Below the pieces are notes generated by a model. The model had not been told where the DNA came from, made no database searches, and saw only the letters and a program-made list of their open reading frames with translations. A stretch of 64,000 bases of DNA, taken from contig NZ_CP150207.1 of NCBI RefSeq assembly GCF_037969765.1, forward strand, positions 3,279,001-3,343,000, written 5' to 3'. Numbering within the stretch: position 1 is the first letter of the stretch; the number at the start of each line of letters is the position of its first letter. Positions 6,881 to 26,778 of the stretch are shown piece after piece. Position numbers and translations under genes: made by a program. This DNA comes from Paenibacillus sp. FSL W8-0186. GTDB taxonomy: Bacteria > Bacillota > Bacilli > Paenibacillales > Paenibacillaceae.

Positions 6881-7117
6881 TTCCTTCATCTCCTTTGGTT
6901 TTCAAGCCTCGCGGATGGTTCATCATCCATCAGTCCGGCGCCAACGACAAATAAACCTTCTATCGCCATCGTCGCAGCGCTAAAAAGGTCCGAATCCAAA
7001 GAAGAGTCACTCTCTCGTTCGTCCCTTCTGTCTCGGTCCTTTCCGGCTCAGAGCAGAATCCGACGCAACCGAACAAAACCACGGTCATGACGGTTTTTCA
7101 CTTCCTTCAAATAACAA

Positions 7118-7166
7118 TGTCCACAAGAGTGCAGCTCGAATCATTCGATACCGCCTCATGTGGACA
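7118..7166 (-). other. Extended 49-nt hairpin between birA and panB (terminator or leader element)
   Basis: On the minus strand outer arms TGTCCACA/TGTGGACA are continued inward by GAG/CTC, GCGGT/GCTGC and TCGAA/TTCGA, with single-base mismatches or bulges and a three-base loop. It begins 16 bases after the birA stop. The downstream flank TTGTTATTTG is T-rich, so it may end the dapB-birA transcript. An extended -10 motif (TGTTATACT, 7167-7175) directly precedes it, so it could also form the very 5' end of the panB mRNA. The rest of the gap down to panB (about 6890-7110) shows nothing I can name. Confidence 0.5.
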
Positions 7167-20128: not shown

Positions 20129-21217
20129 TTAGCGCTTTACCAGCTGCTGAACGCAGTGTTTCCCGAAAGGTGTCGTCTGGACAAATCTTTCACGCGCTTC
20201 GCTTTCGCCGATTCGCAGCATACCCAGATGCAGCATCATGTGCAAAATGCGTTCTTCAAAAATGGACTCCGGAGTATCGTAATAAAACGGCTTGATTAAA
20301 AGCTTCATTTGCGCGAACAGCGAAACTGCTGTTACCCATTCACTGGAGCAGCGCTCTATCCAGTAGATTAGAGATAGCAAGTTAGGGATAGGCCCTTTAT
20401 AAAGTCTTAACCAAAAGCTAACAAACTGTATCATCGGTTCCTGCTTATTTTCCGCAAGGAACGCGCTGCCGTTAGCCGTCAGGACCAATAATCCGCCTTC
20501 CTCCCTTATCCATTTCATGTGATAGGCATAGTCGTAGAGCAGCGCCAGGCGGTTCGGATAATCCTTGAACCTTCGCCCATAGCCAAACCTCCAGCCCTTA
20601 CCTACCAGCGGCTCCGCCACGTGAAGTTTGTCCAGGAGCTGCATCTGATTTCTTCTGTACATGACGCCTTCGGCGTTCAACGGTATTTCGTGATGATAGA
20701 CGTAATCCAGCAGCTCTCTTAAATCCTTCGGAAGCAAATCATACTCCTCCCTGTAGACGGTCGGTTCCGCACCCGCTGGTGTAACAGCCGATTTAAACCG
20801 GGACTCCAGAGATGCTCTGAAACGCCGCTTCAGGTCCTCGGGAACTTCGAACAAGTACTTTGTGCTTGCGGTTGAACCGTTAAACAGCCATCCACGCTGC
20901 CTGAATCTAGTGATGACATCCCTGGGGCTCTCGCGCTCTTTGGCATCCTGCGTGAAACGCGACTGCTGAGCACAGGCGATCAATTCTTCCAAGCTGAACT
21001 GGCGTCTTCCGTCAAATAGCAGCCTATTCAGAAAGCGCAAATCTTCGAGACTCAATTGATCGAGATGCTGCTCGATAAACTCCCTGCGCCCGACCGTCTG
21101 TAAAATCGACTGAATCAGATCGTTCTTAGAGTTTCCGTTGCATTCGCATTGGTAATGATCCGCTATTCTGCTAAGCTGTCCGATATCGGCAAAAGTGAGC
21201 ATATCCGCCAAGTCCAT
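20129..21217 (-). CDS. Unrecognised 362-residue soluble protein, possibly winged-helix
   Basis: I do not recognise this gene with certainty. It is a charged, mostly helical protein with no signal or membrane segment. The N-terminal ~90 residues (MLTFADIGQLSRIADHYQCE, LSLEDLRFLNRLLFDG) resemble the accessory domain before XPB/Ssl2-type helicases, and the middle (LLPKDLRELLDYVYHHEIPL) and end (MLHLGMLRIG) look like winged-helix segments; none of the helicase motifs is present. GAGG precedes the ATG. It lies between the carbonic anhydrase-like and phosphatase genes. Confidence 0.55.
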   Translation of the reverse strand: MDLADMLTFADIGQLSRIADHYQCECNGNSKNDLIQSILQTVGRREFIEQHLDQLSLEDLRFLNRLLFDGRRQFSLEELIACAQQSRFTQDAKERESPRDVITRFRQRGWLFNGSTASTKYLFEVPEDLKRRFRASLESRFKSAVTPAGAEPTVYREEYDLLPKDLRELLDYVYHHEIPLNAEGVMYRRNQMQLLDKLHVAEPLVGKGWRFGYGRRFKDYPNRLALLYDYAYHMKWIREEGGLLVLTANGSAFLAENKQEPMIQFVSFWLRLYKGPIPNLLSLIYWIERCSSEWVTAVSLFAQMKLLIKPFYYDTPESIFEERILHMMLHLGMLRIGESEARERFVQTTPFGKHCVQQLVKR

Positions 21218-21279
21218 ATTTTACCGCCTCGCTGTTTTACTACCATTATGGGAAAATTTGCAGCTTTTATTCCGTCATC

Positions 21280-21313
21280 ACAAAAAAAATAACCCGCGAA
21301 TATTCGGGTTATT
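21280..21313 (-). terminator. Intrinsic terminator after the histidine phosphatase gene
   Basis: AATAACCCG/CGGGTTATT stem with an eight-base loop followed by a run of eight T on the minus strand. The phosphatase stop codon lies in its 5' arm. Confidence 0.9.
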
Positions 21314-21911
21314 TCGAATCCTTCAAATTTTCTGTAAGATGCTTCGTACAGTTATAAAGCAGCATGTCCCAATCTTGATCCTTCTTCTCCAGAATCGTAA
21401 GCGACAAGTTGCCAATCCGTTCTATGTACTTATTATCATATAACGCAGTATATAACTGGGCCAATAATGCCCCATGGGAAATGACAAGGATGCGCTTATC
21501 CGGATAACGCTCGCCCAGCTCTTCCATAAATTCGAGGGCTCGCCGCCGGATGTCATCCTCCTTCTCCTGGCCCAAGTCCAGCATGTACCAATCTTTACCC
21601 CAAAGGGTCTCCCTCTCCTCCGAGGTCAAGCCCTCGATTTGGCCGAAGGCCCGCTCCATTAATCTGGAATCGGGGTCGTATACCGGGATTTGCAAAATTT
21701 CGGCAATGATTGCGCCTGTCTCCTGAGCGCGCGATAATCCACTCGTAATAATAAAGTCCCATGGGCGTTCACCGCTCTCGCGTTGAAGCCTCTCGGCAAG
21801 CATCAGAGCTTGTCTGCGCCCCTCATCGTTGAGCGGGATATCGCTTTGGCCTTGGATTCTCCCTGCCGCATTCCAATCTGTTAGTCCATGACGAATTAAT
21901 CCGACAATCAT
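21309..21911 (-). CDS. Histidine phosphatase family protein (phosphoglycerate mutase-like)
   Basis: A 200-residue protein of the RHG superfamily. The phosphorylated His is in GLIRHGLTDWN at residues 4-14, with GQSDIPLNDEGRRQA, a Glu in the RAFGQIEGL segment and the second catalytic His in LVISHGALL. Members range from cofactor-dependent phosphoglycerate mutases to broad phosphatases; the GpmB/PhoE-like sequence favours a phosphatase. It stands alone between two terminators. Confidence 0.85.
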   Translation of the reverse strand: MIVGLIRHGLTDWNAAGRIQGQSDIPLNDEGRRQALMLAERLQRESGERPWDFIITSGLSRAQETGAIIAEILQIPVYDPDSRLMERAFGQIEGLTSEERETLWGKDWYMLDLGQEKEDDIRRRALEFMEELGERYPDKRILVISHGALLAQLYTALYDNKYIERIGNLSLTILEKKDQDWDMLLYNCTKHLTENLKDSK

Positions 21912-21982
21912 GTTGAACCTCCGCGTAGTTTGCTTCGATAGTTTGCTTCATTTGAACAGTACTATAATATATTCTTGCCTTT

Positions 21983-22025
21983 AAAAACAAGCGCTTCTTC
22001 CCGCAAACGGGTGAAGAAGCGCTTG
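21983..22025 (-). terminator. Intrinsic terminator of the sigma/anti-sigma operon
   Basis: Long stem CAAGCGCTTCTTC/GAAGAAGCGCTTG (13 pairs) with a GC-rich loop and a following TTTTT on the minus strand, 15 bases after the anti-sigma stop codon. Confidence 0.92.
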
Positions 22026-22039
22026 AACTGTTATTGAGT

Positions 22040-22642
22040 TTATCTCCTTACCCGGCGTATGCCGCTGTAGGATATGAGCGCCAGCAGCATGCCTGCCATC
22101 GACAGGACCATCCAATATTGCGGATAGGCAGGACCCATTTGCATAACAAAAGGCTCTACAATCCCCCGCGAGACGTTCGACAAGTCAAATATGGGGAACT
22201 CCGCCGAGGAACCCATATCCTCAGTGATAACAACGGGCTTAAGCACGCCCGTAGCCGGTCTGATCGAATCATTGCTCTGGCCGTATCCACCGATCAGGAA
22301 TACGAGGAAGCTGCACAAGAATACTGCCAGGAAACAGGCGGACCAAATGGATACGCGCCGTCTAATCCGATTGGTAACTTTGCTATGCTCACCGCCAGGT
22401 GCGAGCCAGGGCGATTCCGCATAGATGCGATCCATGACTTTGCGGTTCACCCGCTCCGCCTCATCTGCTGACAACTCCACCGGCAGTTCATGAATCATTT
22501 CTATACTTTCCTGCCATAAGGAGTATTCAGCCGCACAGTATTCGCAGCCCAAAATATGCCATTCCAGCATTTTACGCTGGGGATCATGATCCGGCAAGTC
22601 GGAAATTAATCCGAACAGCTCTTGGGCCTCTCTACAATTCAT
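22040..22642 (-). CDS. Putative anti-sigma factor with zinc-finger (ZAS-like) N-terminus and two membrane helices
   Basis: A 200-residue protein. The N-terminus MNCREAQELF...WHILGCEYC fits the H-x3-C-x2-C motif of zinc-binding anti-sigma domains. Two hydrophobic helices follow (about residues 97-117, SACFLAVFLCSFLVFLIGG, and 175-193, YWMVLSMAGMLLALISY) around a ~60-residue extracytoplasmic loop that could sense envelope stress. Its ATG overlaps the sigma gene stop codon (ATGA), the usual arrangement for a cognate pair. The specific signal is unknown. Confidence 0.82.
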   Translation of the reverse strand: MNCREAQELFGLISDLPDHDPQRKMLEWHILGCEYCAAEYSLWQESIEMIHELPVELSADEAERVNRKVMDRIYAESPWLAPGGEHSKVTNRIRRRVSIWSACFLAVFLCSFLVFLIGGYGQSNDSIRPATGVLKPVVITEDMGSSAEFPIFDLSNVSRGIVEPFVMQMGPAYPQYWMVLSMAGMLLALISYSGIRRVRR

Positions 22643-23232
22643 CTGCTTTTCATCCCTTCATACGGCTCGTAAATCTGTTCATAAAAGTAGGGTTCAAGCT
22701 GACTTTTCACGCTGCTGCGTGCACGGAATAACAGAGACTTCACTGCGCTTACGCTTTGACCCAGCACACTCGCGATCTCTTGATAATCCAGTTGGTCGTA
22801 CTCGCGAAGGATGAGCGCCGACCTCTGCTTCTCCGGAAGATTATTAATCGCTTCACGCACCAATTCAACCTTCTCGCTGCGCAATATCGCTTGCTCCGGT
22901 GCAAGCTCGTTAGGCGCCACCGGTACAATACCGCTCTCTTCCAGCGGGACGCTGCCTGCTCGCTGCTTACGCAGCTCACTTAGCACGGTATTTCTGGCGA
23001 TTGTATACAGCCAGGTTGAGAATGATGCATCCACTTCGCGGAAGGAGTTCAGACTCCGAAATGCTTTATAGAACGTTTCCGAGCATAAATCTTCTGCGAG
23101 CAGCTCCATATGAGCGCTCTTCAACATGTGATAGATAAAGGCCAATATCTTACGCTGATATCTCCGCATCAACTCCGAATACAGCTCTGTATTGCCTTCC
23201 TTAATTTCACGAATCATTTGGGAATCCGTCAT
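22639..23232 (-). CDS. ECF RNA polymerase sigma factor (SigW-like)
   Basis: A 197-residue sigma-70 family protein. Region 2 includes ELYSELMRRYQRKILAFIYH and FSTWLYTIARNTVLSELRK; region 4 includes LPEKQRSALILREYDQLDYQ and a recognition helix SVLGQSVSAVKSLLFRARS. The ATG at 23232 follows AGGAGG by 11 bases and gives SigW length; an ATG 60 bases further upstream lacks a ribosome site. Co-expressed with the membrane anti-sigma downstream. This pair is not in the corresponding B. subtilis interval. Confidence 0.9.
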   Translation of the reverse strand: MTDSQMIREIKEGNTELYSELMRRYQRKILAFIYHMLKSAHMELLAEDLCSETFYKAFRSLNSFREVDASFSTWLYTIARNTVLSELRKQRAGSVPLEESGIVPVAPNELAPEQAILRSEKVELVREAINNLPEKQRSALILREYDQLDYQEIASVLGQSVSAVKSLLFRARSSVKSQLEPYFYEQIYEPYEGMKSR

Positions 23233-23390
23233 TTGAGTGCGATCCTCCTCGCCCATCCATGTGCTTCTTCCCGTTCGACTCTCTCTCTTCATTTTACCGA
23301 ACAGGATTCAAAAAGTTGCGGTTTTCAAGTCATATTTTTTTATAAACCAAATTATTGCTGAATTAGCAGGCCTTCGTACAATCCTTGAAT

Positions 23391-23399
23391 ATTATACCA
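23391..23399 (-). promoter_or_regulatory. Extended -10 element upstream of the ECF sigma gene
   Basis: TGGTATAAT on the minus strand, with a T-rich but poor -35 region. It could start the sigma transcript about 150 bases before the gene. I see no clear ECF-type autoregulatory promoter (GAAAC...CGT). Confidence 0.45.
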
Positions 23400-23502
23400 T
23401 AGATTCCTAATAAGAAAAATAATTGCTATGTAACCGCCAACTACATTCTAGACGAAATCAGCAGGAAAAAGGTTGCTTAAATTTGACAATTATTTAAAAT
23501 GC

Positions 23503-23586
23503 AAAAAAAAAGGCCACTTCGTAAAGTGGCCACTGCTCAATTTAGAGCAACAGTTATTGGATAGGAGTGGAGAGAAACCATACTGT
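23503..23586 (-). ncRNA. Candidate small RNA gene (~84 nt) with C-rich loop and strong terminator
   Basis: Downstream of a consensus promoter the minus strand encodes a short non-coding transcript of about 84 bases ending in an intrinsic terminator. Three hairpins are predicted by eye: ACAGT/ACTGT at the 5' end enclosing a C-rich loop (TCTCTCCACTCCTATCC), then TGCTC/GAGCA (23549-23534), then GGCCACTT-tacg-AAGTGGCC (23531-23512) followed by nine T. The loop is complementary to purine-rich ribosome binding sites, as in C-rich regulatory RNAs of Gram-positives. No ribosome site precedes the only tiny ORF (14 codons). It lies between tyrA and the sigma gene and belongs to neither. Confidence 0.65.
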
Positions 23587-23592
23587 AGTTCT

Positions 23593-23622
23593 ATTATATT
23601 GTATACGTTTTCATTCTGTCAA
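23593..23622 (-). promoter_or_regulatory. Consensus SigA promoter for the candidate small RNA
   Basis: -35 TTGACA (23622-23617), 18-base spacer, -10 TATAAT (23598-23593): both hexamers match the consensus exactly. Predicted start near 23586. It lies 60 bases after the tyrA stop codon and points at the terminator at 23503-23531. Confidence 0.85.
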
Positions 23623-23659
23623 CACTATTTTTTAATCGCTTTCATTTACATTTGGCAGA

Positions 23660-23674
23660 AGGTGCAATGCACCT
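23660..23674. repeat. 15-bp palindrome just after tyrA
   Basis: AGGTGCA-A-TGCACCT, a perfect inverted repeat with a one-base centre, eight bases after the tyrA stop codon and about 38 bases upstream of the -35 of the small RNA promoter. It could be a weak terminator without T-run or a regulator site; the sequence does not decide. Confidence 0.5.
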
Positions 23675-23681
23675 ATGCAGC

Positions 23682-24782
23682 CTATACATACACCTTGTAA
23701 TTTAAAGACTGCAAATGCTGCTTTGCCCGTTCCATTTCCGACTCTTGGCGGAAGGATAAGCGCATCACCCCTGGAACGTCCTCCCGGCTCTCGATAATCT
23801 GCATGTTGCTCAGGTTAATATGCTGATCGCCGAGCTGTGTCGCGATTTGACCAATAATTCCCGGGTGATCCGGCACATCGATATAAATATCGTACAGTGA
23901 AGTAATTGCGCCTTTGCGCCGCTCTGGAAGCTCGCTGCGGAATTGGTTAGCGGTGGCGAACGCCGCCTCGATGCCCTCCCCGTCCCGCGATTCCAGTAAA
24001 TGAATAAACCCTTCGATTTCGCGGTTCCAATCCTTAAGCAAAGTTAAGAGGATATCCCGGTTACTCAGTAAAATATCACGCCAAATCACCGGGTCGCTTG
24101 AAGCGATTCGCGTAATATCGCGAAAGCCGCCAGCGGCAAGCAATCGGTACAAGCCATCAGCGTCCGTATTGTTATAAGTGCGAATTTGATTGACGAGCGC
24201 TACCGCAATAATATGCGGCAGATGGCTGATAGCCCCGACAATTTCATCGTGCAGCACCGGATCTACCCGTACAATTTGCGCTTTGGTATAGGAAAGCAGA
24301 TCCTCCAGCTTCCGGTAGGAATCCTCCGGAACATCCTCTGAAGGAGTCAGCACATAATACGCATTCTCGAATAACAGCGAGGAGGCAGCCTCAACGCCGG
24401 AACGCTCCGACCCCGCCATCGGATGACCGCCGATGAAATGGACGCCCGGGAGGCTTAGCATCGCCGCGCAGGCGGCTACCGAGGCCTTCGTGCTGCCGAC
24501 ATCTGTAATGATACATCCCTGCTTGAGCGGCAGCTCGCTAAGTTTCCGCAGATAAGGCTCCAAACTGCCGACCGGCACACACAAAAAAATGAAGTCGGCA
24601 TCGCAGGCCGCTTCTTCCATAGATGAAGTCACGGCGTCAACGACGCCGCGATCCATAATTTTTTGTTGGGACTCGGGACGATGGCTGTGCCCAACGACGG
24701 TTAAGCCGGGCTTGCCTTTCAGGCAAAGCGCCAGCGAACCGCCAATCAATCCTACTCCGAATATTGCTACTTTAATTGGCAT
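23682..24782 (-). CDS. tyrA: Prephenate dehydrogenase with ACT domain
   Basis: Oxidatively decarboxylates prephenate to 4-hydroxyphenylpyruvate for tyrosine. The 366-residue protein has the NAD-binding GVGLIGGS at residues 9-16, the catalytic GGHPMAGSERSGV near residue 138, and a C-terminal ACT domain from about residue 290 (YDIYIDVPDHPGIIGQIATQ) for feedback by aromatic amino acids. Last gene of the aromatic supraoperon here; aroE, which follows tyrA in B. subtilis, is absent. Confidence 0.95.
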   Translation of the reverse strand: MPIKVAIFGVGLIGGSLALCLKGKPGLTVVGHSHRPESQQKIMDRGVVDAVTSSMEEAACDADFIFLCVPVGSLEPYLRKLSELPLKQGCIITDVGSTKASVAACAAMLSLPGVHFIGGHPMAGSERSGVEAASSLLFENAYYVLTPSEDVPEDSYRKLEDLLSYTKAQIVRVDPVLHDEIVGAISHLPHIIAVALVNQIRTYNNTDADGLYRLLAAGGFRDITRIASSDPVIWRDILLSNRDILLTLLKDWNREIEGFIHLLESRDGEGIEAAFATANQFRSELPERRKGAITSLYDIYIDVPDHPGIIGQIATQLGDQHINLSNMQIIESREDVPGVMRLSFRQESEMERAKQHLQSLNYKVYV

Positions 24783-24834
24783 AAATTCTCACTCGATTTC
24801 TACGATTTGGATTTAAGACGCGCTCCTACAGGAA

Positions 24835-25932
24835 CTACACCTGTACCTGGTCTTTCTTTAGGACCTGCTCCAGAGCGGCGATAAATTTCACGTTCTGCTC
24901 TTTGGTTCCTACGGTCACGCGAATGTAGTCCGGATACTTGCCGAAGCCGGAACGAATAATAATGCCCAGCTTCATCAATTCCTGAAATACTTCCCCTCCC
25001 GGCCGATTGACCTGAACCAGCATGAAATTGCCATGGGCCGGAAAATAGGCCAATCCAAGCCGATCAAACTCCGAACTTAAATAACGGATCCCTTCAGCAT
25101 TCTTATCCCGGCATTCCTTCACAAAATCAAGATCTGCAACAGAGGCTTTGGCAGCTGCTTGACCAAAGCGGGACGTATTGAACGGCTCGCGAACGCGGTT
25201 GATCAGCTGAATCACCTCCGGCTGTCCGACGCCATAACCGATCCGCAAGGATGCGAGGCCGTAGATTTTGGAGAAAGTCCGCAGGACGATCACATTAGAA
25301 TATTTGCCAAGCAGGCTGATTCCGTCCGTGTAGGAAGCATCGGTTACATACTCGGCGTATGCCTCGTCAAGCACGACAAGAACATGGGCCGGCACACGGT
25401 CAAGGAACGATCTTAGGGCATCGTCCGTGACGATAGTGCCCGTCGGGTTATTCGGGTTGCAAATCCAGACAATCTTGGTCTTCTCCCCTACCTTGGCGAG
25501 CATGCCTTCAAGGTCATGCGTGCCGTCCTGCAGCGGAACTTCGATAATCGTCGCCCCTTCGATGCGTGAATTCGTGTCGTAAACGGAGAAGGTCTGATCA
25601 GCCATGACCGTTTCGTCACCAGGCAGCAGGAATGCACGGCAGATCAAGGCGATGACTTCATCGGAACCGCAGCCGAAAATGATCTGTTCCCTGCTGACCC
25701 CAAGATGCTGTGCAAGCACCTCGGTCAATTCCGCAGAGCTGCCGTCAGGGTACTGGGTAATATTAGCGAGTTCTGCTTCAATCGCCGCGCGGACGCGTGG
25801 GGAGCAGCCATATGGATTTTCATTGGAGGCCAGTTTAATAACTTCCTCCAGGCCTAGTTCCTTCTTCACTTCCTCGGCAGGCTTGCCTGGCTGGTACACA
25901 GGAAGATTAACTATTCGGGATTTGGGCAGCAT
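24835..25932 (-). CDS. hisC: Histidinol-phosphate / aromatic aminotransferase
   Basis: A PLP-dependent class I/II aminotransferase of 365 residues. Motifs: SNENPYGCSP, the PLP lysine in RTFSKIYGLASLRIGYG, and IRVTVGTKEQN near the end. In the aromatic supraoperon HisC serves both histidine synthesis and phenylalanine/tyrosine transamination (known for B. subtilis). ATG at 25932 lies eight bases after AAGGAGG; an upstream TTG falls inside that site. Confidence 0.95.
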   Translation of the reverse strand: MLPKSRIVNLPVYQPGKPAEEVKKELGLEEVIKLASNENPYGCSPRVRAAIEAELANITQYPDGSSAELTEVLAQHLGVSREQIIFGCGSDEVIALICRAFLLPGDETVMADQTFSVYDTNSRIEGATIIEVPLQDGTHDLEGMLAKVGEKTKIVWICNPNNPTGTIVTDDALRSFLDRVPAHVLVVLDEAYAEYVTDASYTDGISLLGKYSNVIVLRTFSKIYGLASLRIGYGVGQPEVIQLINRVREPFNTSRFGQAAAKASVADLDFVKECRDKNAEGIRYLSSEFDRLGLAYFPAHGNFMLVQVNRPGGEVFQELMKLGIIIRSGFGKYPDYIRVTVGTKEQNVKFIAALEQVLKKDQVQV

Positions 25933-25956
25933 CAGAAGTTCCTCCTTCAATAAAAA

Positions 25957-26778
25957 CTATGATTTTAATTGTGCCACAAAGTCACGGATTTGCAATAAGC
26001 CTTGTGACTTTGTTTCTGGATTTTGCAACAGAGGAATGGATTCCTCAATTTTACGTACGATCGCGCTGCCGATGACCACCCCATCGCAAATTTCCGAGAA
26101 GCGGCGCACCTGCTCGCGGCTCGATATGCCAAAGCCGATCGCCACGGGCAATTCCGTCTGTTCCTTGACGGAATTGATAAACTGCTCGACTCCTTCGAAG
26201 AAGGACGATCTTTCCCCCGTCACACCTACCGATGATACACAGTAAATAAAGCCGCGGGCTGAAGACATAATGCGTGCGATGCGGTCGTTGGAAGTCGGCG
26301 CAACAAGCGGTACGAGCCGTATATTAGCCGCATCCGCAAGAGCGAGCACCTCTGCCGACTCTTCATAAGGCAAGTCAGGGATGATCAGTCCGCTGATCTC
26401 CGCCTCCTGTAGCTTGGAGAAGAAACGGTCCAAGCCGATTTGCAGGGCCGGATTGTAGTAGGTAAACAATACGAACGGCATCGTCACACCGCGTTCCTTA
26501 GCCTTTCGCGCCGTATCGAGACATGTATCAATGGTGATATGGTGCACGAGAGCCCGCTCGGAGGCGCGCTGAATGACCGGTCCGTCGGCAAGGGGATCCG
26601 AATAAGGAACTCCAAGCTCCACAATGTCAGCTCCTGCTTCCTGCAGGGCGACAAGGATGTCCACAGTCGCATCCGGGTCCGGGTCGCCAACCGTGATAAA
26701 AGGCATCAGCGCCGTTTTTCCCTCAGCCTTAAGCCGCCCAAAAGTAAGATCTAGTGCGTTGGTTGCCGCTGCATTCAT
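25957..26778 (-). CDS. trpA: Tryptophan synthase alpha subunit
   Basis: Cleaves indole-3-glycerol phosphate to indole. A 273-residue TIM barrel with catalytic Glu and Asp in [27 protein letters not shown] and the phosphate loop GFGISSREQ. Its ATG overlaps the trpB stop (ATGA), consistent with stoichiometric synthesis of the complex. Confidence 0.97.

Follow-up and report, generated by a model that had tools for sequence, protein, structure and literature searches.

A deeply conserved, probable small RNA gene with cre-like sites behind tyrA in Paenibacillus, and its counterparts in other Bacilli

The window analysed here, a 64,000-nt stretch of the Paenibacillus sp. FSL W8-0186 genome, very probably holds the gene of a real, new small RNA (sRNA) family of a known kind, deeply conserved and with a clear regulatory signature. 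The inferred RNA is 84 nt long (23503..23586, minus strand). It was delimited by its promoter and terminator, its fold and covariance-model matches in relatives, and its 5' end was placed from the promoter.

Results

Promoter, terminator and fold of the sRNA

The promoter consists of a -35 hexamer TTGACA (23617..23622, minus strand) and a -10 hexamer TATAAT (23593..23598, minus strand). The initial annotation had described both hexamers as exact with an 18-nt spacer, and we confirmed a 12/12 match on the minus strand; TTGACA-N18-TATAAT was the sole 12-of-12 sigma-A-type site within 21000-26000. This interval contained 6 promoter-like sites (6.7 in shuffles) and 5 terminator-like sites (4.9 in shuffles). 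Since promoter-like sites were no more numerous than in shuffles, it is the quality of this site, not the count, that distinguishes it. The intrinsic terminator (23503..23531, minus strand) reads GGCCACTT-TACG-AAGTGGCC plus nine T, and the perfect 8-bp stem claimed earlier was indeed found there; the stem covaries, with 6/8 pairs changed on both sides. The fold of the 84-nt RNA had an energy of -24.7 kcal/mol against a shuffle mean of -13.9 (sd 2.9, n=200; z -3.7), and none of the 200 shuffles was as stable. The strongest evidence against a chance origin of the gene is its conservation among relatives.

Genomic position

Ahead of the sRNA start by 95 nt lies the end of tyrA, encoding prephenate dehydrogenase (23682..24782, minus strand; NF005107 above cut-off), which is preceded in the same operon-like run by hisC, encoding histidinol-phosphate transaminase (24835..25950, minus strand; TIGR01141 above cut-off). 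An ECF sigma factor gene lies downstream (22639..23292, minus strand; TIGR02937 above cut-off). To compare this arrangement among relatives, neighbour genes were counted on 236 loci, with representatives identified by profile match, and merging of duplicates left 211 distinct loci. Seven loci without the core pattern were excluded, as were L041-L047 and L049-L064, nearly all of which came from genomes already counted (L062 did not). The results showed that the 3' end of tyrA, aroA or hisC faces the sRNA gene in 183 of the 211 distinct loci, at a median distance of about 96 nt, with the two genes in the same direction in 150 and in opposite directions in 33. The flanking DNA itself differed among loci, while the flanking genes were mostly these three. 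Of the initial placement between tyrA and the ECF sigma gene, the tyrA side is thus recurrent, but the ECF sigma gene is just one of several downstream neighbours, which include genes for a TPR protein and for a protein with weak similarity to dihydropyrimidinase, among others.

The 33 inverted loci, among them L008, L029, L146, L153, L154 and L158 (inverted relative to tyrA/aroA), indicate that the sRNA gene flipped yet held its position, and that promoter and terminator move together as a unit. It is very improbable that the element is the 3' end of the tyrA/aroA operon or the leader of the next gene instead of an independent RNA: the conserved position after tyrA, aroA or hisC would fit such an element, but the consensus promoter of its own, the inversion in 33/211 loci and the varying downstream genes argue against it. 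By sequence and synteny, the comparison showed the sRNA to be a free-standing non-coding gene at the 3' end of an aromatic amino-acid operon.

Coding potential

An ATG starting at nt 6 was present in 208/211 loci, which could suggest a short peptide gene starting inside the core. We consider this hardly credible. An ATG so close to the 5' end leaves too little space for a preceding ribosome binding site, every codon position is invariant over the core, and the end of the frame is not conserved: a stop followed after 8-26 codons in 125 loci, and none was present within the approximately 80 nt examined in 83 others. A coding peptide was therefore rejected, as no conserved ORF was found across the 211 distinct loci, in agreement with the earlier view that the stretch contains no credible ORF. 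An autonomous promoter and terminator and the lack of a conserved ORF are features that the gene has in common with trans-acting base-pairing sRNAs.

Conserved sequence and structure of the sRNA

The first 30 nt of the RNA form an invariant, C/U-rich segment, ACAGTATGGTTTCTCTCCACTCCTATCCAA (23557..23586, minus strand), which was identical in 40/40 same-genus RNAs except that L007 carries one extra A. Within the core lie CUCC repeats, the complement of ribosome binding sites of the GGAG type. The whole RNA lacks any run of at least three G, and regions of the kind found in G-rich sponges are absent from it. The 5' segment is likely to be the partner-binding part of the sRNA.

The second hairpin (23534..23549, minus strand), proposed earlier by eye, withstood comparison: across the 40 same-genus RNAs its pairing was kept despite sequence change, with double-sided changes in 4/5 pairs and 98.9% of cells paired. 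Taken together, the last two hairpins showed changes on both sides in 10/13 pairs with 96.2% of cells pairing, a result equalled by 0/500 shuffles. The 5' helix ACAGU/ACUGU fared differently. It can form in this genome, yet it is not conserved in the genus, because its 3' strand drifts; among 35 distinct same-genus RNAs, 71.4% of cells were paired and no pair was changed on both sides. Outside the order, many loci could form a shorter UAUGG/CCAUA stem, with no covariation signal. A conserved 5' stem-loop was also rejected by a shuffle test on 89 sequences from outside the order plus a few from Paenibacillus, in which shuffled 3' flanks gave an equal mean stem length (1328/2000 shuffles at or above the observed value). 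The 5' segment was accordingly treated as mostly unpaired.

Distribution among Bacilli

A covariance model was built from the 40 same-genus RNAs, each of the 40 genomes, the window's own included, giving one match. We then searched genomes drawn from the family, order and class, three draws that overlap. Matches were found in 394/394 family genomes (19/19 genera), in 389/392 genomes drawn from the order (48/49 genera) and in 67/161 genomes drawn from the class, which is 54/148 outside the window's family. The model rests on the conserved core, so relatives outside the order without this core would be missed. The covariance search proposed in the initial annotation thus recovered the sRNA in nearly every sampled genome of the order, with covariation confined to the last two of the three hairpins, and promoter, C-rich segment and terminator were all kept in tyrA-bearing relatives, as the conservation part of that annotation's refutation test had required. 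Three order genomes gave no match, also under laxer filters; one is a 1.4-Mb assembly, one is 81% complete and the third (G479) is 99% complete.

The 17-nt heart of the core was exact in 24/27 diverse loci. For the class draw, 40 of the 55 places outside the order were retrieved for locus analysis, and the 20-nt core was exact in 32 of the 40 class-draw loci. Named genomes were scanned with a core pattern designed to exclude most Paenibacillales, which matched 116 stretches. They include Aneurinibacillus, Shouchella, Fictibacillus, Halalkalibacter, Alkalihalobacillus, Alkalihalophilus pseudofirmus OF4, Pseudalkalibacillus, Salibacterium, Marinococcus, Geomicrobium, Caldalkalibacillus, Melghirimyces, Kroppenstedtia and a few Paenibacillus. 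The viral_contigs, plasmids and phages collections gave no match.

More than one match was found in 24/394 family genomes. Six genomes of one genus (g16; L316-L345) had 6-11 matches each; beside the full gene, most of the extra matches read were promoterless 3' pieces running from ACTCTCCACTCC through the terminator. In G357 (L396-L398), the matches share one orientation over about 40 kb starting beside tyrA, resembling attachment sites of inserted modules; by eye, no integrase was present among the listed ORFs of this stretch.

Database and literature searches

No Rfam family reached its gathering score at the sRNA locus, so the description of the RNA as previously undescribed stands with respect to Rfam. 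Under relaxed limits, a search of 500 bases returned seven sub-threshold matches, all far under their cut-offs and of unlikely kinds, and the loci of 13 relatives gave no Rfam match. Elsewhere in the window, at 7024-7157 (minus strand), the pan motif (RF01749), a known cis-regulatory RNA, scored 38.8 bits (gathering score 36.2). A description of the sRNA was absent from the open-access papers searched, and the 16-nt core string occurred in none of 5.39 million such papers. A Paenibacillus dRNA-seq study reports 27 small RNAs (PMC5670726).

cre-like sites in the promoter and terminator

Between the -35 and -10 hexamers, the promoter carries a cre-like site, TGAAAACGTATACA (23600..23613, minus strand), with one departure from TGWNANCGNTNWCA, which we take to be the cre consensus for CcpA. 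The site is conserved in alignments of relatives. A second, weaker site, TGAAAGCGATTAAA (23631..23644, minus strand), lies upstream of the -35 hexamer, and stronger forms of it, such as TGTAAGCGCT, occur in same-genus relatives. The initial annotation had noted neither these sites nor the wide distribution of the sRNA and its exclusion with RsaE/RoxS.

To count such sites, we accepted those within 180 nt that differed from TGWNANCGNTNWCA at no more than one position and used windows from the same loci as controls. The count omits one locus close to a contig end and seven in which the core pattern was absent, and some genomes stood in two groups before merging. Sites were present in 40/40 genus loci (2/688 control windows), 31/33 other order loci (8/579), 20/35 class-draw loci (8/628) and 97/114 named loci (46/2,173). 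After duplicates were merged, a cre-like site at the gene, as expected of a CcpA-regulon member, was found in 182/214 distinct loci compared with 64/4,068 control windows, and the remaining 32/214 had no cre-like site within one mismatch. Of the best sites of the 97 named loci, 71 fell within the terminator part, 24 within the promoter and 2 beyond it on the upstream side. By eye, 7/8 Shouchella loci had a site in both promoter and terminator.

That the presence of a site is kept while its position shifts points to selection for CcpA control. The sites could also serve another LacI-family regulator, in which case the sRNA would answer a different signal. This is suggested by the spacer site of Paenibacillales, TGWAARCGKATWCA, whose one departure is an A in place of the consensus T; however, other families have near-perfect palindromes such as TGTAAGCGTTTACG, and zero-mismatch sites were found in 33/114 named loci, which makes another regulator improbable. 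The cre-like sites differ in place by lineage, and we read the sRNA gene as probably repressed by CcpA.

In L115, L124 and L142, GGAGTGGAGAG-like strings just ahead of the -10 hexamer are the reverse complement of the core, giving an inverted repeat that spans the start. Such strings were limited to these 3/194 promoters. A core complement in the sRNA's own promoter was rejected as a general feature, with at least 8 nt present in 6/194 promoters versus 5/582 control windows.

Searches for targets

We searched 12 same-genus genomes for long complements with TRGGRGTGGRGRG, allowing G-U pairs. Twelve of the 26 matches were the sRNA gene itself, and the other 14 were not conserved, save one site that had the same context in three genomes and apparently lay inside an open frame. 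In 10 genomes, GGAGTGGAG-N3-12-ATG gave 91 matches (overlaps counted twice) versus 20 for the reversed pattern. Because GGAGTGGAG itself resembles a ribosome binding site, this excess is no evidence of targeting. The ribosome-binding-site matches read comprised 3 loci per genome, 14 sites of the window's genome (G000) and one of G016.

A site at lysS, where the nine-mer was present in 6/10 genomes of the initial set, was rejected as a target. In a wider set of 27 loci (24 starts placed, 3 without a placed start), the nine-mer was exact in only 3/20 placed starts from sRNA-bearing genomes, and GGAGTG occurred at that place in 3/4 genomes without the sRNA. Ribosome binding sites of the AAGGAGTGGAG type precede lysS in several same-genus genomes (L366-L395). 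G339, G394 and G559 gave weak matches only (E 1e-15 to 1e-19) to class II lysyl-tRNA synthetase, and they may therefore use another synthetase type.

Most sRNA seeds are shorter than the invariant segment of about 25-30 nt seen here. This opens the possibility that a protein, or a single structured RNA, binds the segment and that the sRNA acts by titration instead of pairing with several mRNAs; we know of no candidate protein for such binding. Invariance of about 25 nt across orders does exceed what short-seed pairing needs, and no conserved long mRNA complement was found in the 12 same-genus genomes. Nevertheless, we regard titration as unlikely, since the segment is C/U-rich and its CUCC repeats are anti-Shine-Dalgarno-like, a likeness to RoxS and FsrA (PMC8464778).

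Discussion

Our preferred explanation, which we hold to be reasonably probable, is that the gene encodes a free-standing, CcpA-repressed, C/U-rich sRNA that would pair with the ribosome binding sites of several mRNAs. On preferred sugars, CcpA, the repressor that is then active, would bind the cre sites on the sRNA gene and lower its output. On poor carbon sources, the sRNA would be produced. Base-pairing of its C/U-rich 5' segment to the ribosome binding sites of a number of mRNAs would then prevent their translation, with the second hairpin and terminator serving to stabilise and end the RNA. Several results count against this explanation: the searches yielded no conserved target, the invariant segment is long for an sRNA seed, the spacer site of Paenibacillales has one departure from the cre consensus, and 32/214 loci lack a site within one mismatch.

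Among known sRNAs, RsaE/RoxS is similar in being a C-rich Gram-positive sRNA with a common UUUCUC...CC stretch, and its range within Bacilli complements that of the 84-nt sRNA. RoxS differs in its length of about 100-115 nt and its other architecture, and it is described as being under ResD and Rex control (PMC8464778). In the class draw (n=161), RsaE/RoxS was found in 36 genomes, the 84-nt sRNA in 67 and both in 0, where both lists are taken as the same draw and weak matches may have been lost to the strict filters. The chance of such exclusion was about 1e-10 with genomes treated as independent and about 2e-4 by families (20 and 11, with 42 assumed in total), both values uncorrected for descent. 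The RF01820 model gave no threshold match in the window, its genome or 12 other same-family genomes of the class draw, whereas the B. subtilis control was positive. Because no genome of the class draw had both, the sRNA may do part of the job that RsaE/RoxS does in B. subtilis and Staphylococcus, and it is perhaps the local counterpart of RoxS.

RosA of B. subtilis and RsaI/RsaOG of S. aureus are described as stand-alone CcpA-controlled sRNAs (PMC8216469), and such control is predicted for the 84-nt sRNA from its cre-like sites. However, PMC8216469 and PMC8464778 present RosA and RsaI as G-rich sponges that capture C-rich sRNAs, whereas the 84-nt sRNA is C/U-rich and resembles the RNAs that such sponges capture. 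Membership in the RsaI/RsaOG family is unsupported: RF01775 had matches in 0/6 genomes at E up to 1, a weak negative, as no control genome scored above the cut-off. SR1 of B. subtilis shows gluconeogenic expression and partial CcpA repression (PMC8464778), comparable to the repression predicted here; by description, it differs in being mainly CcpN-controlled and in encoding the peptide SR1P, while the 84-nt sRNA has no conserved ORF. FsrA of B. subtilis, also by description, is a similarly small sRNA with C-rich regions and differs in being Fur-controlled (PMC8464778).

A broader proposal, which we offer only tentatively and think less probable than the explanation above, is that Paenibacillales, Thermoactinomycetaceae and alkaliphilic Bacillaceae would use the sRNA as their central carbon riboregulator. 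It would be an ancient RNA under CcpA control in the place of RoxS/RsaE, with mutual replacement of the two, and that control would have been retained although its site wandered from promoter to terminator.

Present in 389/392 order genomes and many other Bacilli, the sRNA would rank with the small RNAs that are widely conserved in Gram-positive bacteria, and it matches no Rfam family. Its cre-like site offers a case in which a control site is retained although its position within the gene shifts. For Paenibacillus and the alkaliphiles, in whose sampled genomes RsaE/RoxS was not found, the sRNA provides a handle on post-transcriptional carbon control.
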